Origin: Acidimicrobiales bacterium
GTDB lineage: Bacteria > Actinomycetota > Acidimicrobiia > Acidimicrobiales > SHLQ01
Direction: 5' to 3'
Length of the DNA: 64,000 nt
Assembly (NCBI GenBank): GCA_020629635.1
Contig: JAHDCX010000001.1
Location: forward strand, 77,043 to 141,042
Below, in pieces: positions 1,041-55,309 of the stretch. The position numbers and the translations under genes were made by a program. How positions within the stretch are numbered: the stretch's first letter is position 1; each line of letters begins with the position of its first letter. Under the pieces are notes generated by a model, which made no database searches, was not told where the DNA came from, and worked only from the letters and a program-made list of their open reading frames with translations.

Positions 1041-3494
1041 GTGTCTTTCGTCGTCCGTCGAACTCCACTGATCCCCGCCGCGCTTCTCGTTGCGTTCATC
1101 GCCGGGCTTCTCGGGACCCTCAGCACCTCTGCTTCCGCCGCCACCACGTGTGAACAGGCGGCCGAGCCGACGATGACCGAGGTCCTGGTCCTCGAGATCG
1201 GCCATGACGCCATGTTCGAGGACGAACCGGTTTACGAGGTCGATCGACGCGATGGTCTCTCGTCGGTCGGCCGGGTCACCTACTGCCTCGAGCTCGACGG
1301 GACGTTCGCCGCAGCGACCTTCGAAGCGCCGTCGTTGGATCCTGCGCTCTTGGGCGTTCCGGTATCCGACGCTGCGGCCGCGCAAGAAAGAATCGCCGTC
1401 ACCGTTACCTCGAACGCCGACGGTGTGCCGACCGGACACGATCTCTCGGGGTCGATCGAGTTCTACCCGAACAACTACGGCACGGCTCGGGCAATGGGCG
1501 TCCCAGGGGCATCGCCGGACGCCTTCGACGCCGACGACTTGCCCGGAACGCTGCGCCACGGAGCGATGCAGATCCATGTGGCCGACCCGGCGACCGACAC
1601 CCCCGTGGCGGTGTTCGCCTACAACCGCTGGGCACTCACGGGTGTCGATGATCTCGGCATCGGGCCAAATGACGGAGTCCACCCCGACTGGACGTTCGAG
1701 CAGAACGCCGATCAATACAACACGGCTCGGCTGCGGGTGTTCGCATCCGAAGCTGCCGGATGGGTCACCGATCCCGGCGCCATGCAGACCGGGGCAATCG
1801 TCCCCCGAGTTCCCGGAGCGACCGCCGGACGGACCGTTGTGGAGGGAATGGCACCAGGCGCAGATCTCGTGCGCGCCAGCAGCTTCTTCGACGGTGTCCA
1901 GAAACGTTCACGCGAGCGTGTGGTCGCCGCCGACGGCAGCTTCTCCATTCCGATCGACGTGCCGGCACGGCTCCGGAGCCATACCGCCACCATTGAGGCC
2001 CGAATCAATGGCGAGTGGCGACGAGTGCACACCGTCGCGGACATCGCCGGTGGGGATGTGTATCTGATCCAGGGGCAATCGAACTCCGTGGCTCGCATCT
2101 TCGGTGGCGGAGCGGGCCTCGAACCCGAGCTCGCCTCGCCGTGGATCCGGTCGTTCGGTTCGACAGAACGAACGCACGCACCAGCGTCGATGTCCTGGAA
2201 CCAGGCCGTCGCTGGCAACGGGTACGCCGTTGCGGAGGTGGGGCAGTGGGGTCTGACCCTCGGCGCCGAACTCGTCGAGACGACCGGCGTCCCGGTGGCG
2301 ATCATCAACGGCGCCGATGGAGGCAAGCCAGCCTCGTTCTTCCAACGCAACGACGCGGACCCACTCGACACGGACACGAACTACGGCCGATTCTTGCAGC
2401 GACTCCGGGCCGCCGGTGTCGACGAGTCCGCGATGGTGATCGGCTGGTACCAGGGCGAGGCCGACCATCTCAACGCCGAGGGCCATCGCGCCGGCGTGAA
2501 CGGGCTGTTCGACTCGTGGAAGCTCGATCTCCCTGCCCTCGACACCATCCACCTGATCCAGATTCACAATGGATGTCGGGCGCGAGACGTTCCGGAGGGG
2601 GATCTGGACGTCCGTGAGGTCCAACGCCAGATCGCGCTTGCACGCGACGAGGTCGATCTCGTGAGCACTGTGGCTCTGCCGGGGCACGATGGTTGCCACT
2701 ACACCCCCGACGGCTACCGAGCCCTGGGTGTGCAGATCGCCCGGCTCACCGAACGGGACGTGCTCGGTGTCGCCGTACCCGCCGGTATCGACAGTCCGGT
2801 CGCCATCGCCGCGAAACTCGCAACCGCCGATGGCCGCGTCGTGCGGATTCGGTTCGACGCGCTCGACGTGATTGACCCAAGCGGGACAACCGAGTTCTCG
2901 ATCAGCGACGGCACCCAGGTATTGGAGGTTCGTGGCGGTCCCGGCCACGTCGACCTCGTTCTGGCCGGCACCCCTGCGCCTGATGCCACGGTCCGCTATC
3001 TCGGCGTCGCGGCACCATGGCCGACAACCACCTGGGGAGCGGCGCTCGCTGCGTTCGACGGTCTGGCAATCGAGGGTCAGACGCCACCTCCCGAGGTCGA
3101 GGGTTGTATCGCTGATGGCAATGGGCTCCGGTGGGAGGCCGTCGACGGCGTCGACCTTTTCCAGATCCGCCGGGATGGCCGTTGGCTGGCGAGCACTACA
3201 GGCACGAGCTACGAAACGACGACCGCCGGAGCGGACTTCGTGATTCGGTATCGGCTCGCTGGCGTCACGGTCGATGTGCCGTGTCGAGATGACGTGGAAA
3301 CGCCCGCGTGTGAGGTTCTGAATGGGTCGCTCGAGTGGGACCCCGTCGGCGGCGTGACGGAATACCAGGTACGCCGTGATGGTCGGTGGTTGGCAACGAC
3401 CGGCGGCACCACGTTCATCACCAACACGGCGGGCCATGACTTCGTGATTCGCCATCGACTCGCTGGTCAGGTGGTCGACGTCAGCTGCGAGTGA
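1041..3494 (+). CDS. Secreted SASA-type carbohydrate esterase
   Basis: Secreted SGNH-fold esterase of the sialate O-acetylesterase/SASA family, which removes acetyl groups from glycans. The GTG at 1041 gives a classical signal peptide (hydrophobic core about residues 10-28, Ala-rich cleavage site) with a GAGGGA Shine-Dalgarno 11 nt upstream. Catalytic landmarks are the GQSN block (Ser about 347), the WYQGEADH block, and GHDGCHYTPDGY with the likely catalytic His about 553. After the esterase come two tandem modules of about 58 residues, each with paired cysteines and the motif RRDGRWLA, probably fibronectin-like or sugar-binding. It stands alone, between the permease and a convergent HNH gene. 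The natural substrate is unknown. Confidence 0.8.
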   Translation: MSFVVRRTPLIPAALLVAFIAGLLGTLSTSASAATTCEQAAEPTMTEVLVLEIGHDAMFEDEPVYEVDRRDGLSSVGRVTYCLELDGTFAAATFEAPSLDPALLGVPVSDAAAAQERIAVTVTSNADGVPTGHDLSGSIEFYPNNYGTARAMGVPGASPDAFDADDLPGTLRHGAMQIHVADPATDTPVAVFAYNRWALTGVDDLGIGPNDGVHPDWTFEQNADQYNTARLRVFASEAAGWVTDPGAMQTGAIVPRVPGATAGRTVVEGMAPGADLVRASSFFDGVQKRSRERVVAADGSFSIPIDVPARLRSHTATIEARINGEWRRVHTVADIAGGDVYLIQGQSNSVARIFGGGAGLEPELASPWIRSFGSTERTHAPASMSWNQAVAGNGYAVAEVGQWGLTLGAELVETTGVPVAIINGADGGKPASFFQRNDADPLDTDTNYGRFLQRLRAAGVDESAMVIGWYQGEADHLNAEGHRAGVNGLFDSWKLDLPALDTIHLIQIHNGCRARDVPEGDLDVREVQRQIALARDEVDLVSTVALPGHDGCHYTPDGYRALGVQIARLTERDVLGVAVPAGIDSPVAIAAKLATADGRVVRIRFDALDVIDPSGTTEFSISDGTQVLEVRGGPGHVDLVLAGTPAPDATVRYLGVAAPWPTTTWGAALAAFDGLAIEGQTPPPEVEGCIADGNGLRWEAVDGVDLFQIRRDGRWLASTTGTSYETTTAGADFVIRYRLAGVTVDVPCRDDVETPACEVLNGSLEWDPVGGVTEYQVRRDGRWLATTGGTTFITNTAGHDFVIRHRLAGQVVDVSCE

Positions 3495-3506
3495 TCTGCG
3501 CTCTGC

Positions 3507-4724
3507 TCAGCGGTCGCCTTTGGCGCGGTTGTCTGGGCCGCAGCAGGCGTCGCTGTTGGTGATGCTGGTGTCGTGGGTTTTGGTCCAGGGGATTTTGTGG
3601 TCGATTTGGAGCCAGGAGAGTGGGGCATCGCATCCGGGGTTTCGGCATCGGCCGCGGGCTGCGGCGATGACCATGGTTCGGGCGGGTTCGGGGAGCGTTC
3701 TCGTGGTGTTGCCGTAGTCGTGGATCCCGCCGTCGGGTTCGAGGACGAGTCTTCGGAATTCGGCAACGGCGGCGATCTGCATTGCGAGGTGCGGGTGGAT
3801 GGGGGTGCCGTCGAGCAGTTCGCAGCGCCGATCAGGGTCATCAAACGATGAGATCAGCGGAAGGTCGGCGTGGTCGGGGTTGGTGGCTGTGCGGATCATG
3901 TCTTCGAACAGTGCCTGTCCGATGGTGACGACGACCTGCGGCTTCGGGATGACGGTGTCGGATCGTTCGGCGCCGCGGGCGGCGATCCGGCAGAGGGCGT
4001 CGGCGGTGCGTTGACTGCTCGTGCGTTCGATGGGTTCGCCTGCGTCTGCGGCTGCGGTTTCTTCGTCGAGGAGCCGGGTTTGTTCGCGTTCGAGGATGTG
4101 GATGAGTGCCGCGCCAGAGACGGGGTCGAGTTGGAATCGGCCGACAACGGTCCCGTCGCCACGCCGGTGGATGTTGCAGTAGCGGGATTCGTGTTGTTCG
4201 CGCGGGGCGTCTCCGTCCGGGTCGACGTTGTCGAGCCAATAGGAGAACAGTTTTTGGAAGTCGGTCCAGTCGACGGTGCGGGCGAACTCGACGAACATGT
4301 CTTGGGCGTCGTGGAGTTGGTCGGCGAAGCGAGGACGTACAGCCTTGCGGATGAGTTCGATGTGGGCTCGGCTGAGCCAGCCTTTGCCGAAGGCGTCATC
4401 GAAGACCGGATGCGCCGCGAGGAACCGGCCGATGCGGAGATCCGCGCGGGTGTCGGCGGGGTTGGTGCCGGTGCGTGCGGCGACGTGTTGGTCGATGGTG
4501 CGTGACCCGGATTGGGTCGGGGCGACACCGGCGTGGTCGGCTTCGGCCACCAACCGGGCCCGCAGCGTGTCGACCCGCGAACTCAGGGCAGTGTTCGCCC
4601 AGCAGACGAGCTGGTCGAGGGTTTCGGTCGACAGCATCGTGACGGGCAGATCGAGGAGTTCATCGAGGGCGTTCTGCGCGTTCTTGGCCAGTGTTTCTGG
4701 GTCTTGCGCGAGGCCGAACTCCAT
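3507..4724 (-). CDS. DUF222 / HNH endonuclease domain protein (13E12 family)
   Basis: Actinobacterial protein with an N-terminal DUF222 helical region and a C-terminal HNH nuclease motif: CRNPGCDAPLSW, then LQIDHKIPW, then a terminal Asn (DNRAKGD). Such 13E12-type genes are multicopy in mycobacteria and some are LexA-controlled. The ATG at 4724 is preferred over longer versions: a -10 hexamer TATACT lies 7 nt upstream, which would make the mRNA leaderless, and a LexA-type box sits just beyond it. About 405 residues, ending shortly after the HNH Asn. It converges on the esterase gene with a 12-bp gap and diverges from comF. Its biological role is not established. Confidence 0.85.
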   Translation of the reverse strand: MEFGLAQDPETLAKNAQNALDELLDLPVTMLSTETLDQLVCWANTALSSRVDTLRARLVAEADHAGVAPTQSGSRTIDQHVAARTGTNPADTRADLRIGRFLAAHPVFDDAFGKGWLSRAHIELIRKAVRPRFADQLHDAQDMFVEFARTVDWTDFQKLFSYWLDNVDPDGDAPREQHESRYCNIHRRGDGTVVGRFQLDPVSGAALIHILEREQTRLLDEETAAADAGEPIERTSSQRTADALCRIAARGAERSDTVIPKPQVVVTIGQALFEDMIRTATNPDHADLPLISSFDDPDRRCELLDGTPIHPHLAMQIAAVAEFRRLVLEPDGGIHDYGNTTRTLPEPARTMVIAAARGRCRNPGCDAPLSWLQIDHKIPWTKTHDTSITNSDACCGPDNRAKGDR

Positions 4725-4731
4725 AGGCACA

Positions 4732-4753
4732 AGTATAGCGAACGGACGTTCGA
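4732..4753 (-). promoter_or_regulatory. LexA/SOS box overlapping a leaderless promoter
   Basis: GCGAAC-GGAC-GTTCGA at 4738-4753 matches 11 of the 12 defined bases of the mycobacterial/actinobacterial LexA consensus TCGAAC-N4-GTTCGA. Immediately 3' on the minus strand lies TATACT (4737-4732), then 7 nt to the ATG at 4724. The layout predicts DNA-damage induction of the DUF222-HNH gene. LexA binding is inference; the motif is directly visible. Confidence 0.7.
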
Positions 4754-4824
4754 CAGGCCACTCAAAACCGTTGAATTTCGGGGGATTTCGACGGTGCGCT
4801 CGTGAGCTGTCAGACCGCCGCCAT

Positions 4825-5460
4825 ATGGTCGAGGACATGACAGTGTTGACGGTGCGGCGGTGGATCGACGCGGCGATTTCCGTCGACCATCCCTGCGTTC
4901 TCTGCGGCGCTCCGTCGCGAGGCCTCTGTGAGGCCTGCGCCCAGGATCTCGACCGAGTCGAGGTTGCGACTCCCGCTGGGCTCGACCAGCTCGTCGTGCT
5001 GACGGGCTACGCAGACGTTGGGCGCGAACTCGTTCGGCAGGTCAAGTTGGTCGGGCGTCGTGCACCGCTGGTCCCGATCGCCACCGCGTTGGCGGGGGCG
5101 GTCCAGACGCCGATCGACGCGGTTGTGCCAATTCCGTCGAGTCGCAGTGGCCTCCGCACCCGAGGTTGGGAGCCACCAGCTCACCTCGCCGCGCTGATCG
5201 CTCGGCAGCTTCCCGGTCGTCCCGCAGTACGTACTGCGTTGGTCCGCCGGGACCGAGGTACACAACACGGGCAGTCCCGGGTGCACCGTCTTGAAGGCCC
5301 CGACCTCCGATGGCAGCCCGGCTCGCGCTCGATCGGTGCTCGGGTGTTGCTCGTCGACGACGTCATGACGACAGGGAGCACGCTCGCGAACGCCGCAGCG
5401 ACCCTCCGGGCGCACGGAGTCTCCGACGTGCGGGCGGTCGTCATCGCGGCGGCGCCGTGA
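4825..5460 (+). CDS. ComF family phosphoribosyltransferase-like protein
   Basis: ComF/GntX-like protein, implicated in DNA uptake or nucleotide salvage in other bacteria. The N-terminus has the paired-cysteine zinc site (CVLCGAPSRGLCEAC) and the C-terminus a PRTase PRPP-binding loop (VLLVDDVMTTGSTL). Length (211 aa) is normal. ATG 4825 and ATG 4837 are both possible starts; neither has a well-spaced Shine-Dalgarno, so the start is uncertain. It diverges from the SOS-type HNH gene and is followed by the hpf gene, a common pairing in bacteria. Confidence 0.85.
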   Translation: MVEDMTVLTVRRWIDAAISVDHPCVLCGAPSRGLCEACAQDLDRVEVATPAGLDQLVVLTGYADVGRELVRQVKLVGRRAPLVPIATALAGAVQTPIDAVVPIPSSRSGLRTRGWEPPAHLAALIARQLPGRPAVRTALVRRDRGTQHGQSRVHRLEGPDLRWQPGSRSIGARVLLVDDVMTTGSTLANAAATLRAHGVSDVRAVVIAAAP

Positions 5461-5540
5461 CGCATCGAGCTCGAAGCTTTCGCCCCTCAGGTCCGGAGCG
5501 ATTAGTGTCGAATGTCACATACGCCGTTCAACGACGAGCG

Positions 5541-5625
5541 GCGACAAATCCGCAGTGTGAGCCTTTTGCGAGCCTGCGGCGACAAATCCGCAGTGTGAGC
5601 CTTTTGCGAGCCTGCGGCGACAAAA
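5541..5625. repeat. 38-bp tandem repeat upstream of hpf
   Basis: Two identical 38-bp units (5541-5578, 5579-5616) and the first eight bases of a third (5617-5624) end just before the hpf Shine-Dalgarno. Each unit holds inverted arms CCGCAG and CTGCGG around an 18-nt loop. There are no unique spacers, so this is not a CRISPR. The position in the 5' leader of hpf suggests a regulatory or recombination-generated element. Confidence 0.8.
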
Positions 5626-5637
5626 CGGAGGATGCCC

Positions 5638-6195
5638 ATGCAGGTGAACATCAGCTCTCGGCGAACGGTGGTGAGCGACCGCCTCTCGGATCTGACTCGA
5701 TCGAAGATCAACCGCCTCGAGAAATACGTTCCCGGCCTCGAACGTGCTGATGTCCACTTCTCCGAAGAACGAAATCCTCGGATCGCGGAGAAAGAGACCT
5801 GCGAGGTGATGCTCGAGGGCGACGGTCATCGAGTCCGAACGAAGGTGACGGCTGCCGACCCCTATACGGCGATCGACCTTGCGACGGGCAAGCTCGAACA
5901 CCAACTGCACAAGCTCAAGACGAAGATGCATCGCCACGAAGCCAACGGCGAGCATTCGATCCGGATGGACGGCGCACCCGCGCCCGCAGCCCCCGAGCCG
6001 CAAGTCGACGACAACACGTCGAAGATCGTGAAGAAGAAGCAGTTCGCGATCGACCCGATGATGCCCGACGATGCGGTGCTGCAGATGGAGTTGCTCGGCC
6101 ACGACTTCTTCCTCTTCACCAACGCAGAGACGAACAAGTCCGCCGTCGTGTACTTGCGCGACGACGGCGACATCGGCCTCATCGACGCCGAGTAG
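5638..6195 (+). CDS. hpf: Ribosome hibernation promoting factor, long form
   Basis: Cytosolic stress factor that binds the 30S decoding region and, in its long form, dimerises 70S ribosomes into inactive 100S particles. Residues about 1-100 are the S30AE/RaiA fold (MQVNISSRR start, HFSEERNP, acidic C-strand). A variable linker leads to the C-terminal dimerisation domain (KKKQFAIDPMMPDDAVLQME through VYLRDDGDIGLI). 185 residues is typical of the long form. The second ATG (5638) is chosen because GGAGG at 5627-5631 is spaced 6 nt from it but only 0-1 nt from the ATG at 5632. The 5' leader carries the 38-bp tandem repeat. Confidence 0.93.
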   Translation: MQVNISSRRTVVSDRLSDLTRSKINRLEKYVPGLERADVHFSEERNPRIAEKETCEVMLEGDGHRVRTKVTAADPYTAIDLATGKLEHQLHKLKTKMHRHEANGEHSIRMDGAPAPAAPEPQVDDNTSKIVKKKQFAIDPMMPDDAVLQMELLGHDFFLFTNAETNKSAVVYLRDDGDIGLIDAE

Positions 6196-6218
6196 CCCGC
6201 CTGCCCCGGGGTCTGTCT

Positions 6219-6297
6219 GGGGTCAAGTCTTTCCAATCGACAACTTCTCCAGGGTCGCCACCGGCGCGGCAGTTGTCGATTGGAAAGACTTGACCCC
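6219..6297. repeat. 27-bp perfect inverted repeat (GGGGTCA-type palindromic element)
   Basis: Arms 6219-6245 and 6271-6297 are perfectly complementary over 27 bp with a 25-nt loop. The outer ends read GGGGTCAAGTCT / AGACTTGACCCC. It lies between hpf and secA. There is no U-tract, so it is not a classic intrinsic terminator, though such a stem would stabilise a 3' end. It belongs with related palindromes at 11.8, 29.9, 51.7 and 52.96 kb. Confidence 0.85.
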
Positions 6298-49483: not shown

Positions 49484-51589
49484 CTACTGGCAGAAGTCGA
49501 TGGTTGCCTGGCCATTCCACCGGCCGGACTCGCCCGGGATCCCTTGGAACTCGGTATTGGCGTACAGCGTCAGGACCGTGCCGCACTGGCCAGCGACGGA
49601 CATGATCCGGTCGTTCATGTTGGGTTCGAGATCCGGGAAGCGGGCGACGTCCTCGCACAATGTCCGGTTGAACACCTCGGGGTCCCCGCGTTCGCCATAG
49701 AAGTCGACGCAGCCGTTGGTCTGCATCGACGACGAGATGCGGGCGATGGTGCTGTCGAGATAGACGCGGACCTTCGGGCCGTCTGGGTCGGCACGGACGA
49801 AGCGCCATTGATCGAGATCGACCGGGTCACTTCCGCCGACGAAGATTCGCACGACGTGCTCGGCGCCTTCTCGCCGGATCGTGAGCGGGATCGCCCGCTG
49901 AAGGAAGCGACCGCTGTCGCCGGTTGTCTCGAGCGCCCCAACCCTTGCCGCCAAGGTGCCGTCGACGAAGACGAGGATGCCGGTCACGGGTTCGTCCGGT
50001 GCCAAGGAGTACCTCAGCTGAAACACGTAGTCGCCCGGCTCGAGATTTGTGACCGTGTACTCGAGCCATTCGCCATCCTGGGCGCCGGCGACGACGAGAC
50101 CGGGGCCGCTGTCCGCTCGTGCGTCGGCTCGCGTTGCGATGTCGACAGCGTCGTCCGGGCGGAAGTCCACTGCGTCGCCGGTCCGCTCGTCGACAACGTT
50201 GTAGGCAACGCCTGCGCCACCGATGTCGAAGGCTTCGGCCTGAACCCAGGATTGGGCGTCGTGTGCCGATTCGCCGAAGTGGCGGGCCTCGACCGGGATC
50301 AGGGCTTCGGTTGTGGTGGAGGGGGCGGCAACCGTGGTCGTCGTGACGGGCGTCTGCCAGCCGGTATCGATCGGCTCTTCGGGGGCGGCGGACGCCGCGA
50401 CCTCTTCGACGGCGACCACCGGCTCGGTGAAGGCCACGGCGTCGGGTTCGGACTCGACGGGAGGAGCGAGCGCGGCCACACCGATGGCGGCTGCCGCCAT
50501 CTGCGCGCCCGCCAACGCCGCGGTTGCCGTGCTGGTCGTGAGCGCAGTGGTCGCGGTGGATCCGGCTTCGGTCGCAACGGCGACAGACGCCGAACGTTCG
50601 ACGCCAACGAGGTAGCCGAGCCACGACACCGAACCGGCCACCTTGTTGAGGCGGTCGGTGCCGACCTCGAGCATCGCTCGGACCGCGATGGGATCGAAGT
50701 GATCACCGGCACATCGAAGGAGCTCTTTGAGGGCGACCTCGGTAGACAGCGCCTCCTTGTAGGAGCGCTTGCTGGTCATGACGTCGAAGGCGTCGGCGAC
50801 GGCCACGATTCGGCCCGCCAGAGAGATGTCTCTTCCCTCGGTGGATTCGGGATAGCCCGACCCGTCGAATCGGCAATGATGCTCTGTGGCTGCCCCGGTC
50901 CATTCACCAAGCCAGGGTTTCAGCGGCGCAAGGTATCGGGCTCCCGCACCGGGGTGGGTCTGCAGGACACGCCATTCGGCGTCGGAAGGCCGGCCCGGCT
51001 TGTTCAGCAGTGTTGACGGAACGTCGAGCTTGCCGATGTCGTGGAGTAGCGCCGCCCAATGGAGCTTTTCGAGCTCGGTGTCACTCAGTCCCATCTGTTC
51101 GCCGATCAGGACGCTGTACGCGCGGACTCGTTCGGAATGACCGCGGGTTCGCGGGTCGTGTTCGGTGAGCCGCTGGACGAGCGTGACCAACCATTCGGAT
51201 TGTGAGTCGACGCCGTTCGCCTCGGCCTCAGCAAGGTCTCGTTCGAGCTGACGGGCCGATGGCCGGCGAAGTGCGACGGAGAACCGATTGGGGGCCTTGT
51301 CGGGAAACGCCAGATTGAGTGTGAGCAGCGAGGACAGCGGAATGAGCCGTCGTACCGCTCGGTCCGTCAGCCGGACCGTGGCGATGCTGAGTCCGGCCAG
51401 GCCGATGAACCACAGGAGCCTCGGTATGCCGAGCCGGTCGTGAGGCAGCAGGCGGGCGACGAGGAAGGAGACCGCGATTCCGGCGGCGATGGGTGCGACG
51501 AGCACCGTGGCCTGAACGGCGCGTGCAAGTACCGCCCGACGTTGCCAGCGACCGGCATCCGTCTTCGTGTCGACTGTTTCCGGGACCAC
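49484..51589 (-). CDS. HD-GYP protein with extracellular CBM6-like and crystallin-like domains
   Basis: Two N-terminal helices (about 18-45, 55-75) lead to a cytoplasmic HD-GYP domain (about 135-320). Its key motifs are TRGHSERVRAY, LLHDIGKLDVP, THPGAGARYL, EHHCRFDGSGYP and GRIVAVADAFDVMTSKRSY, so the metal site looks intact and c-di-GMP hydrolysis is plausible. An Ala/Thr-rich membrane segment (about 345-370) and a Pro/Thr linker follow. Next is a CBM6-like module (about 455-610: WVQAEAFDIGGAGVAYNV, GEWLEYTVTNLEPGDYVFQL). The last 75 residues are Cys-containing with a beta/gamma-crystallin-like strand (VLTLYANTEFQG). 701 residues, GTG start. This architecture suggests a receptor in which an external sugar or wall ligand controls a cytoplasmic phosphodiesterase. 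Confidence 0.82.
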   Translation of the reverse strand: MVPETVDTKTDAGRWQRRAVLARAVQATVLVAPIAAGIAVSFLVARLLPHDRLGIPRLLWFIGLAGLSIATVRLTDRAVRRLIPLSSLLTLNLAFPDKAPNRFSVALRRPSARQLERDLAEAEANGVDSQSEWLVTLVQRLTEHDPRTRGHSERVRAYSVLIGEQMGLSDTELEKLHWAALLHDIGKLDVPSTLLNKPGRPSDAEWRVLQTHPGAGARYLAPLKPWLGEWTGAATEHHCRFDGSGYPESTEGRDISLAGRIVAVADAFDVMTSKRSYKEALSTEVALKELLRCAGDHFDPIAVRAMLEVGTDRLNKVAGSVSWLGYLVGVERSASVAVATEAGSTATTALTTSTATAALAGAQMAAAAIGVAALAPPVESEPDAVAFTEPVVAVEEVAASAAPEEPIDTGWQTPVTTTTVAAPSTTTEALIPVEARHFGESAHDAQSWVQAEAFDIGGAGVAYNVVDERTGDAVDFRPDDAVDIATRADARADSGPGLVVAGAQDGEWLEYTVTNLEPGDYVFQLRYSLAPDEPVTGILVFVDGTLAARVGALETTGDSGRFLQRAIPLTIRREGAEHVVRIFVGGSDPVDLDQWRFVRADPDGPKVRVYLDSTIARISSSMQTNGCVDFYGERGDPEVFNRTLCEDVARFPDLEPNMNDRIMSVAGQCGTVLTLYANTEFQGIPGESGRWNGQATIDFCQ

Positions 51590-51713: not shown

Positions 51714-52949
51714 TCACGTGCCCTTGTAGTTGAGGATCGTCTCGAGGCGATGCTCGATCGTCACCAGGTCGGTCTGGTTGTCCATGACCTCGCCGATGTC
51801 CTTGTAGGCATCGGGGTGCTCGTCGAGCAGGCCGTGAGCGTCCTCGTTCCAGGCGATCCCGTCCATCGCCGCAACGAGGGTGTCCTCGCTCAGCTGCTTG
51901 CGGGCCGCAGTCCGCGACAGCTTTCGGCCGGCACCATGGCTGGCCGACCGGTACGAGGACGGGTTGCCCTTGCCCGAGACGATGAACGAACCCGTCGCCA
52001 TCGAACCCGGGATGATGCCCCACCGGCCCTCGGATGCGTCGATCGCTCCCTTTCGGGTGATCCACATCTCGATGCCGTGGTGCGTTTCGCACGAGGCGTA
52101 GTTGTGGTGGCACTGGATCTTCTTGCCCTCGGTGACGAACCCTTTGGTGTCCATCACCCTCGCCACGACCGCAACGATGGCGTCCATCATCGCGGCGCGG
52201 TTCTCGAGCGCGTAGTCCTGCGCCCACAACATCCCGTCGATGTAGGCCTCGAACGAGTCGGTGCCCTGGACGAAGTGCGCGAGATCGGGATCCTCGAGCG
52301 GCTGCTCGATGACCCGCTTCAGCTCGTTCTTCGCCCGTCCGATGTGCTCCTGCGCGAACAGGTTGCCCGGGCCACGCGAGCCCGAGTGCAGCACGATCCA
52401 GACGCGATCGTCCTCGTCGACGGTCAGCTCGACGAAGTGGTTTCCTCCGCCGAGCGTCCCGAACTGCGACGCGATCTTCTTCGCGTTGAACCGATCCGAC
52501 TTCACGTCGGGTGCGGTGCGGATCAGCCGGTCGAGGACCTTGGTGTCGTGTCCCTTGCCTCGGTCGAGGTCGTGGGATCCATTGCCTCGACGGCCTGCCT
52601 TGGGCTGACCCGACGGCACGGCCTTCGCGATGCCGGTGTGGATCGTGCTCAGGTGCTCGTCGACCTGGTCGCGGGTGAAGATCGTCTTCTGCGCGACCAT
52701 GCCACACCCGATGTCGACGCCGACCGCGGCCGGGATGATCGAGTCCTTGGTGGCCACGACCGAACCGACGGTTGCGCCCATGCCCAGGTGGGCGTCGGGC
52801 ATGAGGGCGAGCGGCTTGTGGACAAAGTTGAGCGACGCGGTCCGATGCGCCTGCGCCATGGTCTGCGCGTCGAGGTCGGTCGCCCAGCTCCGCACGTTGC
52901 CGTGCTCGATCGGGGTGGTGATGTTTGGAGAGATGTTGTTGGTATCCAT
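51714..52949 (-). CDS. rtcB: RNA-splicing ligase RtcB
   Basis: GTP- and Mn-dependent ligase that joins RNA 2',3'-cyclic phosphate to 5'-OH ends, repairing or splicing tRNAs. Metal and catalytic motifs are all present: VGVDIGCGM (Cys), GGGNHFVEL, LHSGSRGPG, QCHHNYASCE, and SHGAGRKLSR containing the guanylylated His. About 411 residues from ATG 52949, with GGAGGGG 5-11 nt upstream. It is the last gene of the leftward island that holds the RlaP-like transferase, an HNH gene and tRNAs, so tRNA repair is the obvious role. Confidence 0.95.
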   Translation of the reverse strand: MDTNNISPNITTPIEHGNVRSWATDLDAQTMAQAHRTASLNFVHKPLALMPDAHLGMGATVGSVVATKDSIIPAAVGVDIGCGMVAQKTIFTRDQVDEHLSTIHTGIAKAVPSGQPKAGRRGNGSHDLDRGKGHDTKVLDRLIRTAPDVKSDRFNAKKIASQFGTLGGGNHFVELTVDEDDRVWIVLHSGSRGPGNLFAQEHIGRAKNELKRVIEQPLEDPDLAHFVQGTDSFEAYIDGMLWAQDYALENRAAMMDAIVAVVARVMDTKGFVTEGKKIQCHHNYASCETHHGIEMWITRKGAIDASEGRWGIIPGSMATGSFIVSGKGNPSSYRSASHGAGRKLSRTAARKQLSEDTLVAAMDGIAWNEDAHGLLDEHPDAYKDIGEVMDNQTDLVTIEHRLETILNYKGT

Positions 52950-52961
52950 GTCGCCCCTCCT

Positions 52962-52973
52962 GGGGTCAAGTCT
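52962..52973. repeat. Half of a GGGGTCA-type element
   Basis: GGGGTCAAGTCT is identical to the outer 12 bases of the 6.2-kb inverted repeat, but the second arm is missing. It lies just upstream of the rtcB Shine-Dalgarno. Confidence 0.5.
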
Positions 52974-52999
52974 CAACAAGTAACAAGTTGGTGTGTGGT

Positions 53000-53766
53000 T
53001 CAGATGCCGAGTCGCTCCCACACCTTTTGGTGTGTGGCGATCGACCAGCTTTCGATTCGGTCCCGGTCGGCGCCGGGACGGATGGAGTCATCGTCGAGCA
53101 TCGACTCGAGCTGGGCGTCGAGCTCGAGCACCCGCTCCCACCACTCGTCGAAGTCGACCTCGCCATGGCGGACAGCACGAAGCCAATCGCCATCTGCGGT
53201 GAGCAGCGGAAGCTGGAGCGCGCCGGTGGTCAGGAGCTCGATGCACTGAAACCCGAGCCGGGCGCAATGCATTGCGTACTTCGTGTCGTAGCCGTACTGC
53301 GCGATCAGCTCGGGCCGGCCGCCGCTGCCTCGTTGACCGTGGCCACCTCCGTCAACGCCGAGCAGGCGTTTGGCCTGCGATTGCATGTACCCGCGGTACC
53401 GAGGGATCACGTGACGCCCAACGAAGGCCTCTCCCAGCGCCTGGAGCTCGCGCCCCTCTTCGGTCGCGTGTTCGATCGGCGCCCACATCGACATCAGAAT
53501 CGATGGGTTTCCCGATCCAGCGAGCCGAAGGAAACGGCGAAGCGAGTGCAGGGTCCGGTCGGTGTCACCGGTCCGGATCGAGCGCCCTCGGGCTGAGTGC
53601 GCTGCATGACAGTCTTGAAGCCGTGCTCGTCGAGCCCCATCAGCTGGACGGGGGATTCGACGACAACGCCAAGTTCGTCGTGGTCTTCGCCACCGGGGAT
53701 GCCAGTGCCGTGCGCGGTCGAGCCGACCTCGACGAGTAGCGGTGGTATGTCGAGTCGTTCAGTCAT
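53000..53766 (-). pseudogene. RlaP-type nucleotidyltransferase (RNA repair), frameshifted
   Basis: Two frames together make one protein of about 255 residues. The N-terminal part from ATG 53766 (GGAGGTGAG just upstream) has the polymerase-beta-type motif VEVGSTAHGTG...EDHDELGVVVE. The C-terminal part, in another frame, runs from DRTLHSLRRFLRLAGSGNPS through ARLGFQCIELLTTG to the stop at 53000. The frame is restored by adding one base near 53571-53573 (CCGGT on the minus strand). The family is the predicted nucleotidyltransferase linked to RNA repair, and rtcB follows 50 bp downstream. It may be an assembly indel rather than a dead gene. Confidence 0.78.
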
Positions 53767-53821
53767 CGGGCTCACCTCCGGTGATGCTCTTTCGGTTGTC
53801 GGACGGGTCGGGTGTACGGAT

Positions 53822-53864
53822 CTGTGGACCGCCTGCCCCTCTCTTTGAGGCTGGCGGTCCACAG
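53822..53864. other. 12-bp perfect hairpin between HNH and RlaP-like genes
   Basis: CTGTGGACCGCC (53822-53833) pairs perfectly with GGCGGTCCACAG (53853-53864), 19-nt loop. There is no U-tract on either strand, so it is more likely an RNA-processing or stability element, or a structured RNA, than an intrinsic terminator. Confidence 0.7.
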
Positions 53865-53930
53865 AAGCCGGGTTGTCAGAAGGGCCGGCGGTCGTGTTCC
53901 AAGAGGCACCTCGGGGCCGCCGCCCGAACT

Positions 53931-54437
53931 TCAGACGCCGGCGGTGGCGAACCACGCATCCCATTCGGGACGGCGGCTCGCCAGGACGAGTCGACCCGAC
54001 GGCACGGTCGGGCGCTGCTTGAGCGACCAGCCCATCTCGTCGAGGGTGCGGTCGTCCTTGGTTGCGTTGTGCACACGGCACATCAGCACGCAGTTGTGCC
54101 ACGACGTGTCACCGCCACGCGAGCTCGGAACGAGGTGATCGATCGTGTCGCCACGCTCGTCGCAATCGGAGACCTGGCACCGGCCACCGTCACGTGCACG
54201 CAGCGCCGCCTTCGAGAAGGCCACCCCGCTCGGGTCACGCATTCCGGCGAACGACACCATGCGCAGCAACCGCACGACGTCGGGGAACGGAAACTCGGTG
54301 CCGCCTGCTGAGCGGAGCACTCGGTCGTCGTCCTGGGTCACGAGTTCGGCTCGTCCGGTGAGGATCAGGGTCATCGCTCGCTTCCACGACACGACGGCCA
54401 ACGGCTCGTAGGAGGCGTTGAGAAGTAACACGGACAT
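53931..54437 (-). CDS. HNH endonuclease
   Basis: 168 residues starting MSVLLLNASYEPLAVVSW, paralogous to the HNH gene at 16.7 kb over its whole length. Nuclease core: GRCQVSDCDERGDTIDH, LVPSSRGG, CVLMCRVHNATK. ATG 54437 has AAGGAGG 6 nt upstream, a strong ribosome site. It lies directly downstream of the tRNA cluster on the same strand and 164 bp upstream of the RlaP-like gene. Whether it nicks DNA for mobility or acts in the repair system is unknown. Confidence 0.88.
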   Translation of the reverse strand: MSVLLLNASYEPLAVVSWKRAMTLILTGRAELVTQDDDRVLRSAGGTEFPFPDVVRLLRMVSFAGMRDPSGVAFSKAALRARDGGRCQVSDCDERGDTIDHLVPSSRGGDTSWHNCVLMCRVHNATKDDRTLDEMGWSLKQRPTVPSGRLVLASRRPEWDAWFATAGV

Positions 54438-54487
54438 CGCAGCCTCCTTTCGTTGGGGTGAATGGCGGATGGGTGTGTTGAGCAAGG

Positions 54488-54572
54488 GTGATCGATCGGA
54501 ATCGAACCGACGCGTCCCGGGGGACACCAGGGTCACGACCTGGCGCAACGAACCAACAGTCGCCTCGACCAC
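54488..54572 (-). tRNA. tRNA-like gene, class II, anticodon uncertain (degenerate)
   Basis: 85-nt cloverleaf: acceptor GTGGTCG/CGATCAC (one G-U), D-arm GCGAC/GTTGC, anticodon stem CCAGG/CCTGG, long variable arm (GTCC-CCCG-GGAC), T-arm GTCGG-TTCGATT-CCGAT. The anticodon loop is TCGTGAC: position 33 is C, not U, so the formal anticodon GUG is doubtful, and the class II arm fits Ser/Leu better than His. No CCA, discriminator C. Probably a decayed or non-decoding tRNA. Confidence 0.5.
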
Positions 54573-54574
54573 CA

Positions 54575-54651
54575 TGGCGCCATCGATGGGATTCGAACCC
54601 ACGACCTTCTCCTCGACAGGGAGCTGCTCTGACCAACTGAGCTACGACGGC
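54575..54651 (-). tRNA. tRNA-Asp (anticodon GUC)
   Basis: Acceptor GCCGTCG/CGATGGC with one G-U pair, D-arm GCTC/GAGC, anticodon loop CTGTCGA (GTC), T-arm GTGGG-TTCGAAT-CCCAT, discriminator G as required for Asp, and encoded CCA. The outer anticodon-stem pair is a G-A mismatch. Confidence 0.82.
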
Positions 54652-54663
54652 AAGACACAAGTG

Positions 54664-54735
54664 AGCCCCCGGCAGGATTCGAACCTGCGACCACCTGGTT
54701 CGAAGCCAGGTGCTCTTCCGCTGAGCTACGGAGGC
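54664..54735 (-). tRNA. tRNA-Arg (anticodon UCG)
   Basis: Acceptor GCCTCCG/CGGGGGC (one G-U), D-arm GCTC/GAGC, anticodon stem CCTGG/CCAGG with loop CTTCGAA (anticodon TCG), T-arm GCAGG-TTCGAAT-CCTGC. Discriminator is U and CCA is not encoded. Bacteria normally read CGA with an ICG tRNA, so a UCG tRNA is unusual. Confidence 0.8.
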
Positions 54736-54739
54736 GAAG

Positions 54740-54821
54740 TACTTCCCGTGGGAGTCGAACCCACATGCCCGAAGGCCACGGCTTCTGAGGCCGCTGCGTC
54801 TGCCATTTCCGCCAGGGAAGC
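54740..54821 (-). tRNA. tRNA-Leu (anticodon CAG)
   Basis: Class II cloverleaf: acceptor GCTTCCC/GGGAAGT (first pair G-U), Leu-type D-arm, anticodon loop CTCAGAA (CAG), long variable arm, T-arm GTGGG-TTCGACT-CCCAC, discriminator A; CCA not encoded. First tRNA of the leftward cluster. Confidence 0.85.
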
Positions 54822-54837
54822 AAAGTTCGGTGTGAGA

Positions 54838-54894
54838 GCCCGGGGGATGGCGAGTCTCGATCGTGGATCGAGCGAGTGCCGGCATCCCCCGGGC
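54838..54894 (-). ncRNA. Long structured element upstream of the tRNA cluster
   Basis: Outer arms GCCCGGGGGATG (54838-54849) and CATCCCCCGGGC (54883-54894) pair over 12 bp; an inner hairpin CTCGATC-GTG-GATCGAG (54856-54872) fills the loop, separated by GCGAGT and CGAGTGCCGG. Two coaxial stems separated by an internal loop suggest a folded RNA. Identity unknown; the strand is assumed from the island's direction. Confidence 0.45.
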
Positions 54895-55023
54895 ACGTGT
54901 GTGCCTCTTGGAACTGAACACTGCGTGGCTGACCTCATCGCCGAGACATTCGCGGGGTCCGTCTCTGAACCGGCATGCACCATGCAGCTATGTGAACGTG
55001 TACCTCGAGCCCGAAAAGCACGA

Positions 55024-55055
55024 AAGCCGCCGACTCGTTCAGCGAGCGGCGGCTT
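55024..55055 (-). terminator. Hairpin terminator after the 47-aa ORF
   Basis: AAGCCGCCG-A-CTCG / CGAG-CGGCGGCTT: a 13-bp stem with one bulge and a 5-nt loop. On the minus strand it is followed by TCGTGCTTTTC. It lies 36 nt after the stop of the small ORF, separating it from the tRNA cluster, possibly as an attenuator. Confidence 0.6.
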
Positions 55056-55090
55056 CGGAAGCCAGAGGATCGGATCTGTTTAGTGCGATG

Positions 55091-55234
55091 TCATCGCAAG
55101 ATCTCGATCACCTCCGAAGCCGGGGTCCCGGGGATATGGCGCTCGGCGTCCGGCAGGACGACGCACGCCAACGCATCGACCGAAAGGTCGAATTTTTGGG
55201 TATTCAGTTGTTCTGAATAGCTCGTGTAGGTCAT
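55091..55234 (-). CDS. Small hypothetical protein, first frame of the RNA-repair island
   Basis: 47 residues, MTYTSYSEQLNTQKFDLSVD ending SEVIEILR. The frame is preceded by AAGGCAG 5 nt before the ATG and by a near-consensus promoter about 50 bp upstream, and followed by a hairpin. Codon use is less GC-biased than in neighbouring genes. No family recognised; a leader peptide or a small regulatory partner of the island are options. Confidence 0.5.
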   Translation of the reverse strand: MTYTSYSEQLNTQKFDLSVDALACVVLPDAERHIPGTPASEVIEILR

Positions 55235-55280
55235 CGTTCTGCCTTGATGGCCGCGGCGGGGTCGCCGGGGCAGGAGGTTC

Positions 55281-55309
55281 GTTGTACTGAGTCCTTCGGC
55301 GAATGTCAA
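55281..55309 (-). promoter_or_regulatory. Sigma-70-type promoter of the RNA-repair island
   Basis: On the minus strand TTGACA (55309-55304), a 17-bp spacer and TACAAC (55286-55281). The perfect -35 and ideal spacing are rare in such GC-rich DNA. It points at the 47-aa ORF and the tRNA-HNH-RlaP-RtcB genes beyond. Confidence 0.6.

Follow-up and report, generated by a model that had tools for sequence, protein, structure and literature searches.

A conserved block of redundant tRNA and RNA-repair genes behind a candidate translation-sensing leader in an Acidimicrobiales bacterium

In the stretch of contig JAHDCX010000001.1 of an Acidimicrobiales bacterium analysed here (64,000 nucleotides, hereafter the window), a single block brings together a promoter, a short open reading frame (ORF), RNA hairpins, four tRNAs and three protein genes, all of them on one strand:

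55309-51714, minus strand: the whole block (promoter, ORF, hairpins, four tRNAs, HNH, RlaP, rtcB)
55281..55309, minus strand: operon promoter TTGACA-17-TACAAC (-35 TTGACA, 55309-55304; -10 TACAAC, 55286-55281)
55091..55234, minus strand: leader ORF of 47 aa (MTYTSYSEQLN...ASEVIEILR), with its stop codon 48 nt upstream of the loop of the terminator
55045..55132, minus strand: antiterminator hairpin; the last codons of the leader ORF supply its 5′ arm, and its 3′ arm doubles as the 5′ arm of the terminator
55017..55064, minus strand: terminator-like hairpin GCCGCC..CTGAACG..GGCGGC with an interrupted T tract
54910..54994, minus strand: module B, a conserved structured RNA of 85 nt, between the terminator and the first tRNA
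54739..54821, minus strand: tRNA-Leu(CAG) (ARAGORN; Rfam 48.6 bits)
54663..54735, minus strand: tRNA-Arg(TCG) (Rfam 72.8 bits), its anticodon found nowhere else in the genome
54575..54651, minus strand: tRNA-Asp(GTC) with encoded CCA (Rfam 67.5 bits)
54486..54572, minus strand: unusual tRNA-His(GTG), detected by ARAGORN only
53931..54437, minus strand: HNH endonuclease of the tRNA-array type (PF01844/PF13395)
53000..53766, minus strand: RlaP, RNA ligase-associated Pol-beta nucleotidyltransferase (PF10127, over the cut-off in the genome search)
51714..52949, minus strand: RtcB RNA 3′-phosphate ligase (PF01139, E=1e-103)

A preliminary description had placed the promoter, the 47-aa ORF, hairpins, tRNAs, HNH, an RlaP-like gene and rtcB on this strand, and all are present. 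What it called a tRNA-like gene does belong to the cluster, but is in fact the tRNA-His(GTG) (54572-54486), and the hairpins that it had noticed belong in part to a conserved attenuator, which it had missed, and in part to a new structured RNA.

The four tRNAs are redundant in decoding, which is complete in this genome without them, and they are distinct from the housekeeping set, as had been proposed: they are 82-90% identical to the tRNAs that relatives carry in this block (71-81% for tRNA-His), against 59-71% to those of their own genome with the same anticodon, so that array tRNAs are closer across species than to their own housekeeping counterparts. Thus, tRNA-Leu(CAG) shares 89% identity with an array tRNA of locus L067 and 67% with its own housekeeping Leu(CAG), tRNA-Asp(GTC) 82-90% with array tRNA-Asp of relatives and 71% with its own, and tRNA-Arg(TCG) 82-86% with the array tRNA-Arg(TCG) of five relatives. 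The tRNA-His gene encodes both G-1 and C73, its variable arm is long, and position 33 is a C; its homologues take a 91-nt form in L122/L123 and a shorter C33 form in L068/L069. A tRNA array unit has been defined as at least 20 tRNAs at a density of at least 2 per kb (PMC5966550); the window, with four tRNAs in 336 bp, has the density but not the number, and relatives range from 3 (L068/L069) through 15 (L151) to 22 (L122) and 24 (L123). Such spare tRNAs would presumably be resistant to the agent that damages the ordinary ones.

With regard to the proteins, HNH is 62-67% identical to its counterparts in array relatives, and further homologues adjoin tRNA clusters on plasmids (L126, L130, L132, L134) and phages (L135, L136, L138). 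The RlaP-like gene of the preliminary description does hold a PF10127 region, but its frame is split near 53570, which had escaped notice: a one-base deletion breaks it by comparison with the four relatives where it is a single intact frame (L068, L069, L074, L109), the C-terminal part being otherwise conserved (54-71% identity) with no further stops. End repair may consequently be impaired in this organism, or the frameshift may be an assembly error. RtcB, the only copy in the whole genome, keeps the active-site Asp/Cys, His and Lys motifs and the C-terminal Lys when aligned to solved RtcB chains, and would in this system repair cleaved RNA. No Ro60/TROVE gene was found in a search of the same genome.

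The arrangement is conserved, the opposite outcome having been named beforehand as its refutation: Acidimicrobiales relatives keep the order tRNAs, HNH, then RlaP, Ro60/TROVE or an RNA ligase, and finally RtcB, with up to 24 tRNAs, and rtcB closes the block in the array loci where this is complete. The idea that RNA ligase and end-processing genes belong together is thereby supported, and the RNA-repair reading is strengthened because relatives add Ro60/TROVE (L067, L071, L073, L109, L151) and an ATP-dependent RNA ligase (Pfam). The window RtcB falls within a clade of 13 (support 100/100), three members of which (L070, L072, L121) have neither tRNAs nor HNH, and thus RtcB also works alone. The presence of RtcB alone was discarded as a signal, as it is common (173/296 Actinomycetota genomes), and no tRNAs lie within 10 kb of the RtcB genes on Nostoc and M. 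branderi plasmids. Given that the tRNA-neighbourhood label showed no significant clustering on the whole RtcB tree (82/500 shuffles as low), a single origin of the association is not claimed.

The operon promoter is sigma-70-like and conserved, in agreement with the proposal of one functional locus under a single promoter. Its sequence and spacing are identical in L068 and L069, L122/L123 carry the variant TTGACA-17-TATACA/TATACC, and L150 has TTGACA plus a TATAAC-like -10; among the relatives' leaders inspected it was weak in L067 and not found in L071. In the relatives compared it lies about 490-540 nt upstream of the first tRNA, and the series from promoter and leader ORF through hairpins and tRNAs to HNH and RtcB is repeated there in the same order, more than chance would give. 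A scan of the minus strand from the tRNAs to rtcB gave no terminator-like site, and the transcript would be continuous from the leader to rtcB.

Each array locus that was read up to its start (n=11, near-copies included) has a leader ORF of 20-56 aa, most with an (S/A)xQLN-like motif at the N-terminus. The stop codon lies 48-51 nt upstream of the terminator loop in the eight leaders for which this was measured, that of the divergent L160 among them; L150-L152 have the same layout, as judged by inspection. In shuffled single leaders an ORF ends in this register by chance in about 4-5% of cases. As a conserved protein the 47-aa ORF was rejected: the best tblastn match has E=0.008, at the same place in L123, and it is for this reason that it is taken as a leader peptide. 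The terminator hairpin has energies of -20 to -27 kcal/mol and an invariant CTGAACG loop in all seven first loci, and in L160 the same layout with a different sequence; the T tract after the hairpin is interrupted, and a generic terminator scan did not pick it up. The antiterminator, whose minimum free energy in the window is -41.6 kcal/mol (z -5.1; -1.9 to -5.4 in relatives), includes three pairs with both sides changed between lineages, a covariation that draws on few independent lineages, and in L067 the hairpin still folds, yet the core arm sequence is not kept. In structure and conservation, then, the end of the leader ORF overlaps an arm of an antiterminator that excludes the terminator, as in an attenuator.

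Between these hairpins and the tRNAs lies module B, in which six pairs have both sides changed (0/500 shuffles as high; slid controls 0-1). An inner helix proposed by RNAalifold (23-27/53-57) was dropped in favour of 32-36/50-54, which has two double changes. A covariance model (R1) built from module B of seven loci led by itself, in a search of about 400 genomes per rank, to four further loci, all immediately upstream of tRNAs and all equipped with a leader ORF and hairpins, one of them carrying an RtcB of another subfamily. Strong matches were confined to array loci, with none convincing in the plasmid and phage arrays or the tRNA-less RtcB loci searched; weak ones of 20-22 bits in G388, G396, G614, G641 and G947 were taken as chance. 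Since nothing in Rfam rose above chance at gathering or relaxed thresholds, module B appears, on sequence comparison, to be a structured RNA family new to that database.

The best reading of the leader would be a translation-sensing attenuator of the whiB7 style above a tRNA-replacement and RNA-repair operon, and the block as a whole is probably a stress-inducible operon of spare tRNAs and RNA repair under ribosome-mediated transcription attenuation. RNA polymerase would start at the conserved promoter and transcribe the leader ORF; a ribosome translating as far as the leader stop would mask the antiterminator's 5′ arm, so that the terminator would form and transcription end. When translation fails, with few intact tRNAs, an antibiotic or starvation, the antiterminator would form instead and allow read-through via module B into the tRNAs, HNH, the gene for end repair or Ro60, and rtcB, and the cell would thus gain sequence-divergent replacement tRNAs together with enzymes for mending and resealing cut RNA. 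Anticodon nucleases, the threat proposed in the preliminary description, may be a trigger, but such a leader points to the sensing of failing translation generally (antibiotics, starvation, tRNA loss), tRNA cleavage being one among several causes. Comparison of the loci shows (i) that the tRNAs are redundant and form a lineage of their own; (ii) that the gene order is conserved; (iii) that the leader ORF keeps its register; (iv) that the competing hairpins have compensatory changes; and (v) that module B is structured; from these we infer read-through under translational stress and the protection that it would bring.

Alternatively, the locus of the window could be a decaying remnant, which would be compatible with an inducible operon in the relatives; its four tRNAs against 22-24 in G016/G012, the deletion in RlaP and the C33 of tRNA-His would fit. 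This is unlikely, as the locus still has an intact promoter, leader, module B, HNH and RtcB and three intact tRNAs with good scores, the C-terminal part of RlaP is conserved, and L068/L069 combine three tRNAs with intact genes, which makes the small set a stable form. Structured leaders are frequent on tRNA precursors, and the hairpins could accordingly be RNase III or RNase P processing signals of a long tRNA precursor in a constitutive operon with no switch, as the imperfect T tract and the position of module B between hairpin and tRNA would also allow; however, processing requires neither a leader ORF conserved down to the position of its stop nor a second, mutually exclusive hairpin, and we consider this explanation rather improbable.

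It seems similarly improbable that the tRNAs and HNH are a selfish or horizontally acquired array of plasmid or phage origin, giving a mobile element codons or anti-defence tRNAs, with rtcB as a chance neighbour. Array-type HNH genes do adjoin tRNA clusters on such elements, mycobacterial HNH-bearing arrays occur on plasmids and phages (PMC5966550, PMC12803027), and some RtcB loci within the clade have no array. Chance, however, would hardly place rtcB at the end of the complete blocks, or, in L160, an RtcB of another subfamily (48% identity) after the tRNAs behind the same leader, when generic RtcB seldom has tRNA neighbours (1 tRNA in 296 kb over 27 loci) and the genes for Ro60, RNA ligase and RlaP all belong to RNA repair.

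To return to the inducible operon, the role of second tRNA sets in bacteria and phages has long been open, with codon-supply and anti-nuclease hypotheses in competition. Here the gene order ties the tRNAs to RNA-repair enzymes and the conserved leader ties them to how well translation proceeds, so that a replacement-and-repair hypothesis becomes directly testable; one structured RNA family and a new class of target for leader-peptide attenuation in actinobacteria would be added. It is possible, at somewhat short of an even chance, that this is an undescribed system, a chromosomal operon whose leader attenuator and module B sense failing translation and answer it with divergent tRNAs and repair by RtcB, RlaP, Ro60 or ATP-dependent ligase, and thereby a protection, encoded by the cell itself, against toxins that destroy tRNAs and against collateral damage from phage defence.

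The single parts are of known kinds, and for their combination no description was found. The preliminary description had named no precedent for exactly this composition, which stands for the combination; it is less isolated than was thought, because HNH tRNA arrays are known in mycobacteria, cyanobacteria and phages. The trn array of Anabaena sp. PCC 7120 (26 tRNA genes, on a megaplasmid) is likewise a redundant cluster, silent until translational stress and induced by translation inhibitors, and its RHH repressor TrcR also controls rtcB and an HNH gene, tied there to the tRNAs by co-regulation; in contrast, it is at the promoter that TrcR exerts its control, rtcB is a chromosomal gene apart from the array, and the parts of that account consulted describe no leader peptide, RlaP or Ro60 (PMC10272220). 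The array units of mycobacteria, which may be chromosomal or lie on plasmids and phages, share redundant, sequence-divergent tRNAs and HNH, their commonest gene, but need at least 20 tRNAs, with RtcB or ligase unmentioned and no attenuator described (PMC5966550, PMC12803027); R1 finds nothing convincing in L132. The rsr-yrlBA-rtcBA operon of Salmonella, with Ro60 (Rsr), a tRNA-like RNA and RtcB, is also an RNA-repair operon and is induced by damaged tRNAs, although Ro60 is shared only by some relatives of the window genome, control is by RtcR through tRNA fragments, Y RNAs take the place of real tRNAs, RtcA is present and HNH absent (PMC7790460). In the whiB7/wblC attenuators of actinomycetes, full translation of the leader favours the terminator and its failure the antiterminator, a likeness of layout, the target there being a transcription factor gene rather than tRNAs and RNA repair (PMC11550727). 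Finally, the RNA-repair sets of jumbo phages (PMC7824862) and the tRNA clusters of cluster C1 mycobacteriophages (PMC10264068), whose anticodon-loop changes have been proposed to evade host nucleases, combine tRNA genes with ligases (RtcB or Rnl), RlaP and TROVE, but these are genes of phages, not a conserved operon on a chromosome under a single attenuator.

The block studied here, in a draft genome of 4.45 Mb, is laid out as follows:

55309-55281, minus strand, promoter
55234-55091, minus strand, leader ORF
between the leader ORF and tRNA-Leu(CAG), minus strand, hairpins
after the hairpins, minus strand, tRNAs in the order Leu(CAG), Arg(TCG), Asp(GTC), His(GTG)
3′ of tRNA-His, minus strand, HNH, then RlaP, then RtcB, which ends at 51714

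The tRNAs are separated by 2-11 nt, HNH follows tRNA-His after 48 nt and RtcB follows RlaP after 50 nt; a terminator scan of the minus strand within the block scored no terminator-like sites. The next gene 3′ of rtcB on the same strand (49484-51589) encodes an HD-domain protein of 701 aa that also has a carbohydrate-binding module. Compared with four intact relatives, RlaP lacks one base near 53570, after which the frame is well conserved and without further stops; either the base was lost recently or the assembly is wrong there.

The main new result is the leader. Ahead of the first tRNA, the seven array loci compared have a conserved stretch in common. Most of them also share the promoter, which is exact in the window and in the small-set loci of two relatives (L068, L069), has −10 variants in the large arrays L122 and L123, is only weak upstream of L067, and was not found in the search upstream of L071. 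In each locus a leader ORF of 20-52 aa ends with its stop 48-51 nt 5′ of the loop of a terminator-like hairpin (−20 to −27 kcal/mol), the loop itself, CTGAACG, being invariant; an ORF of the same register arises in about 4-5% of leaders subjected to mononucleotide shuffling. A second hairpin (−30 to −42 kcal/mol) is formed by the 3′ end of the leader ORF and the 5′ arm of the terminator and, because this arm is common to both, the two structures are mutually exclusive. Its shuffle z-scores in six loci are −5.1, −1.9, −2.2, −5.4, −3.9, and −4.5, and three of nine core pairs are changed on both sides between lineages, as counted on core arms aligned end to end by hand with L067 excluded.

On the 3′ side of the terminator-like hairpin lies a structured RNA of 85 nt (54994-54910), here module B, in which six pairs show two-sided changes, a number reached by none of 500 shuffles and to be compared with 0-1 in slid controls. 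It had no match in an Rfam search, and it is a new RNA element. A covariance model built from the seven loci was searched in overlapping sets of genomes (19 from the family, 397 from the order, 395 from the class, and 396 from the phylum), and its strong matches (at least 52 bits) are single-copy and located at array leaders. Four of these are new (L150-L152, in G241, G013, and G015, and L160, in G566), all running directly into tRNAs and each with a leader ORF and hairpins; a further match, in G486, is probably L067 itself, judging by score and contig number. The most telling is G566 (52 bits), where the leader peptide and terminator sequences differ, the stop-to-loop distance is 49 nt, and the leader is followed by six tRNAs, an RtcB of 48% identity, and then HNH. 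The pairing of the same leader and block with an RtcB from a different subfamily speaks for selection there on RtcB function and not on one inherited gene. The terminator loop CTGAAC (55042-55037) is also an exact complement of GTTCAG in module B (about 54970-54964), and a contact between the two is possible; both are invariant, hence there is no covariation.

As regards the conservation of the block, a scan of 84,980 species genomes, confirmed by tblastn, gave 48 RtcB relatives, among which those at 74-81% identity are all Acidimicrobiales and the remainder, short partial matches aside, stand at about 50% or less. In the RtcB tree with added rows, 13 fall in one clade (support 100/100); tRNAs and HNH lie upstream on the same strand in seven of them and are missing from L070, L072, and L121, while the contigs of L074, L075, and L076 are too short to judge. 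The genes between HNH and RtcB vary: RlaP in L068, L069, and L109, Ro60/TROVE in L067, L071, L073, and L109, an RNA ligase (PF09414) in L109, and in some relatives a GNAT or LMW-phosphatase gene. Genes for GNAT acetyltransferase and the arsenate-reductase-like LMW-phosphatase occur repeatedly in the interval from the repair genes to RtcB (L073, 9213-9899; L109, 8685-9140; L151, 12341-13278). The arrays reach 22 tRNAs in G016 and 24 in G012. As controls, 27 generic RtcB loci (296 kb) hold one tRNA, and 3 of 30 further Actinomycetota RtcB loci have a single lone tRNA-Ile within 1.5 kb. RtcB also lies between or right after tRNAs (2-6 nearby) in other phyla, namely Dehalococcoidia (L077), Chloroflexi (L104, L105), and Bryobacterales (L110), apparently independently of the Acidimicrobiales clade. 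On the viral contig L119 (IMG/VR 3300010052_000154, 1701-6295), a homologue of Ro60/TROVE, RtcB, and three tRNAs line up on a single strand.

The whole genome has 48 tRNAs above the Rfam cut-off and, since Leu(CAG), Asp(GTC), His(GTG), and Arg(ACG, CCG, CCT, TCT) are present elsewhere, the cluster is redundant for decoding. The cluster tRNAs share 82-90% identity (His, 71-81%) with the same tRNAs in relatives' clusters, against 67% for Leu(CAG), 71% for Asp, and 59% for His with the genome's own counterparts; Arg(TCG) lacks such a counterpart and differs little between the two comparisons (82-86% with relatives, 82% with the genome's Arg(CCT)). The closer match to relatives makes them, for the most part, a separately inherited lineage rather than recent copies. 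The tRNA-His retains G-1 and C73, has a long variable arm, and carries C at position 33, as in G010 and G014, with U33 in G012 and G016, in every other window tRNA, and in all the genome's housekeeping tRNAs examined. This arm, unusual for histidine tRNAs, is seen in the array tRNA-His of the window (54486-54572), L122 (3668-3758), and L123 (6364-6454).

Of the HNH homologues examined, 4 of 11 on plasmids adjoin 17-31 tRNAs (Frondihabitans, Pseudarthrobacter, Mycolicibacterium, and Nostoc) and three of four on phages adjoin tRNAs, Mx1 additionally having a TROVE gene. No coding sequence of mycobacterial tRNA arrays is more widespread than HNH (PMC5966550), which in M. avium is embedded in four of four array types (PMC12803027). 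Beside the HNH, the array of the Pseudarthrobacter plasmid pACHL01 (L130) includes a tmRNA gene (5124-5511) among about 31 tRNAs.

In the open-access literature, a search for RtcB with a tRNA array or cluster led only to a paper on Anabaena and to one on CRISPR-associated transposons, and no description was found of an attenuator on such an array with RtcB, an absence that is not proof. The leader is laid out like the whiB7/wblC attenuator, in which the terminator is favored if the uORF is translated in full and the antiterminator if its translation is disturbed (PMC11550727). The content of the operon suits a signal of failing translation: the tRNAs would serve for replacement, RtcB would rejoin 3′-phosphate ends, RlaP would restore lost nucleotides, as has been proposed for it (PMC7824862), and Ro60 would be a platform for RNA quality. 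The spare tRNAs may, by analogy, have the anti-nuclease role proposed for those of phages (PMC10264068). In the Salmonella rsr-yrlBA-rtcBA operon, Ro60, a tRNA-like RNA, and RtcB respond to damaged tRNAs (PMC7790460), and in Anabaena the trn operon is a silent tRNA array inducible by translation inhibitors, whose repressor also governs rtcB and an HNH gene (PMC10272220).
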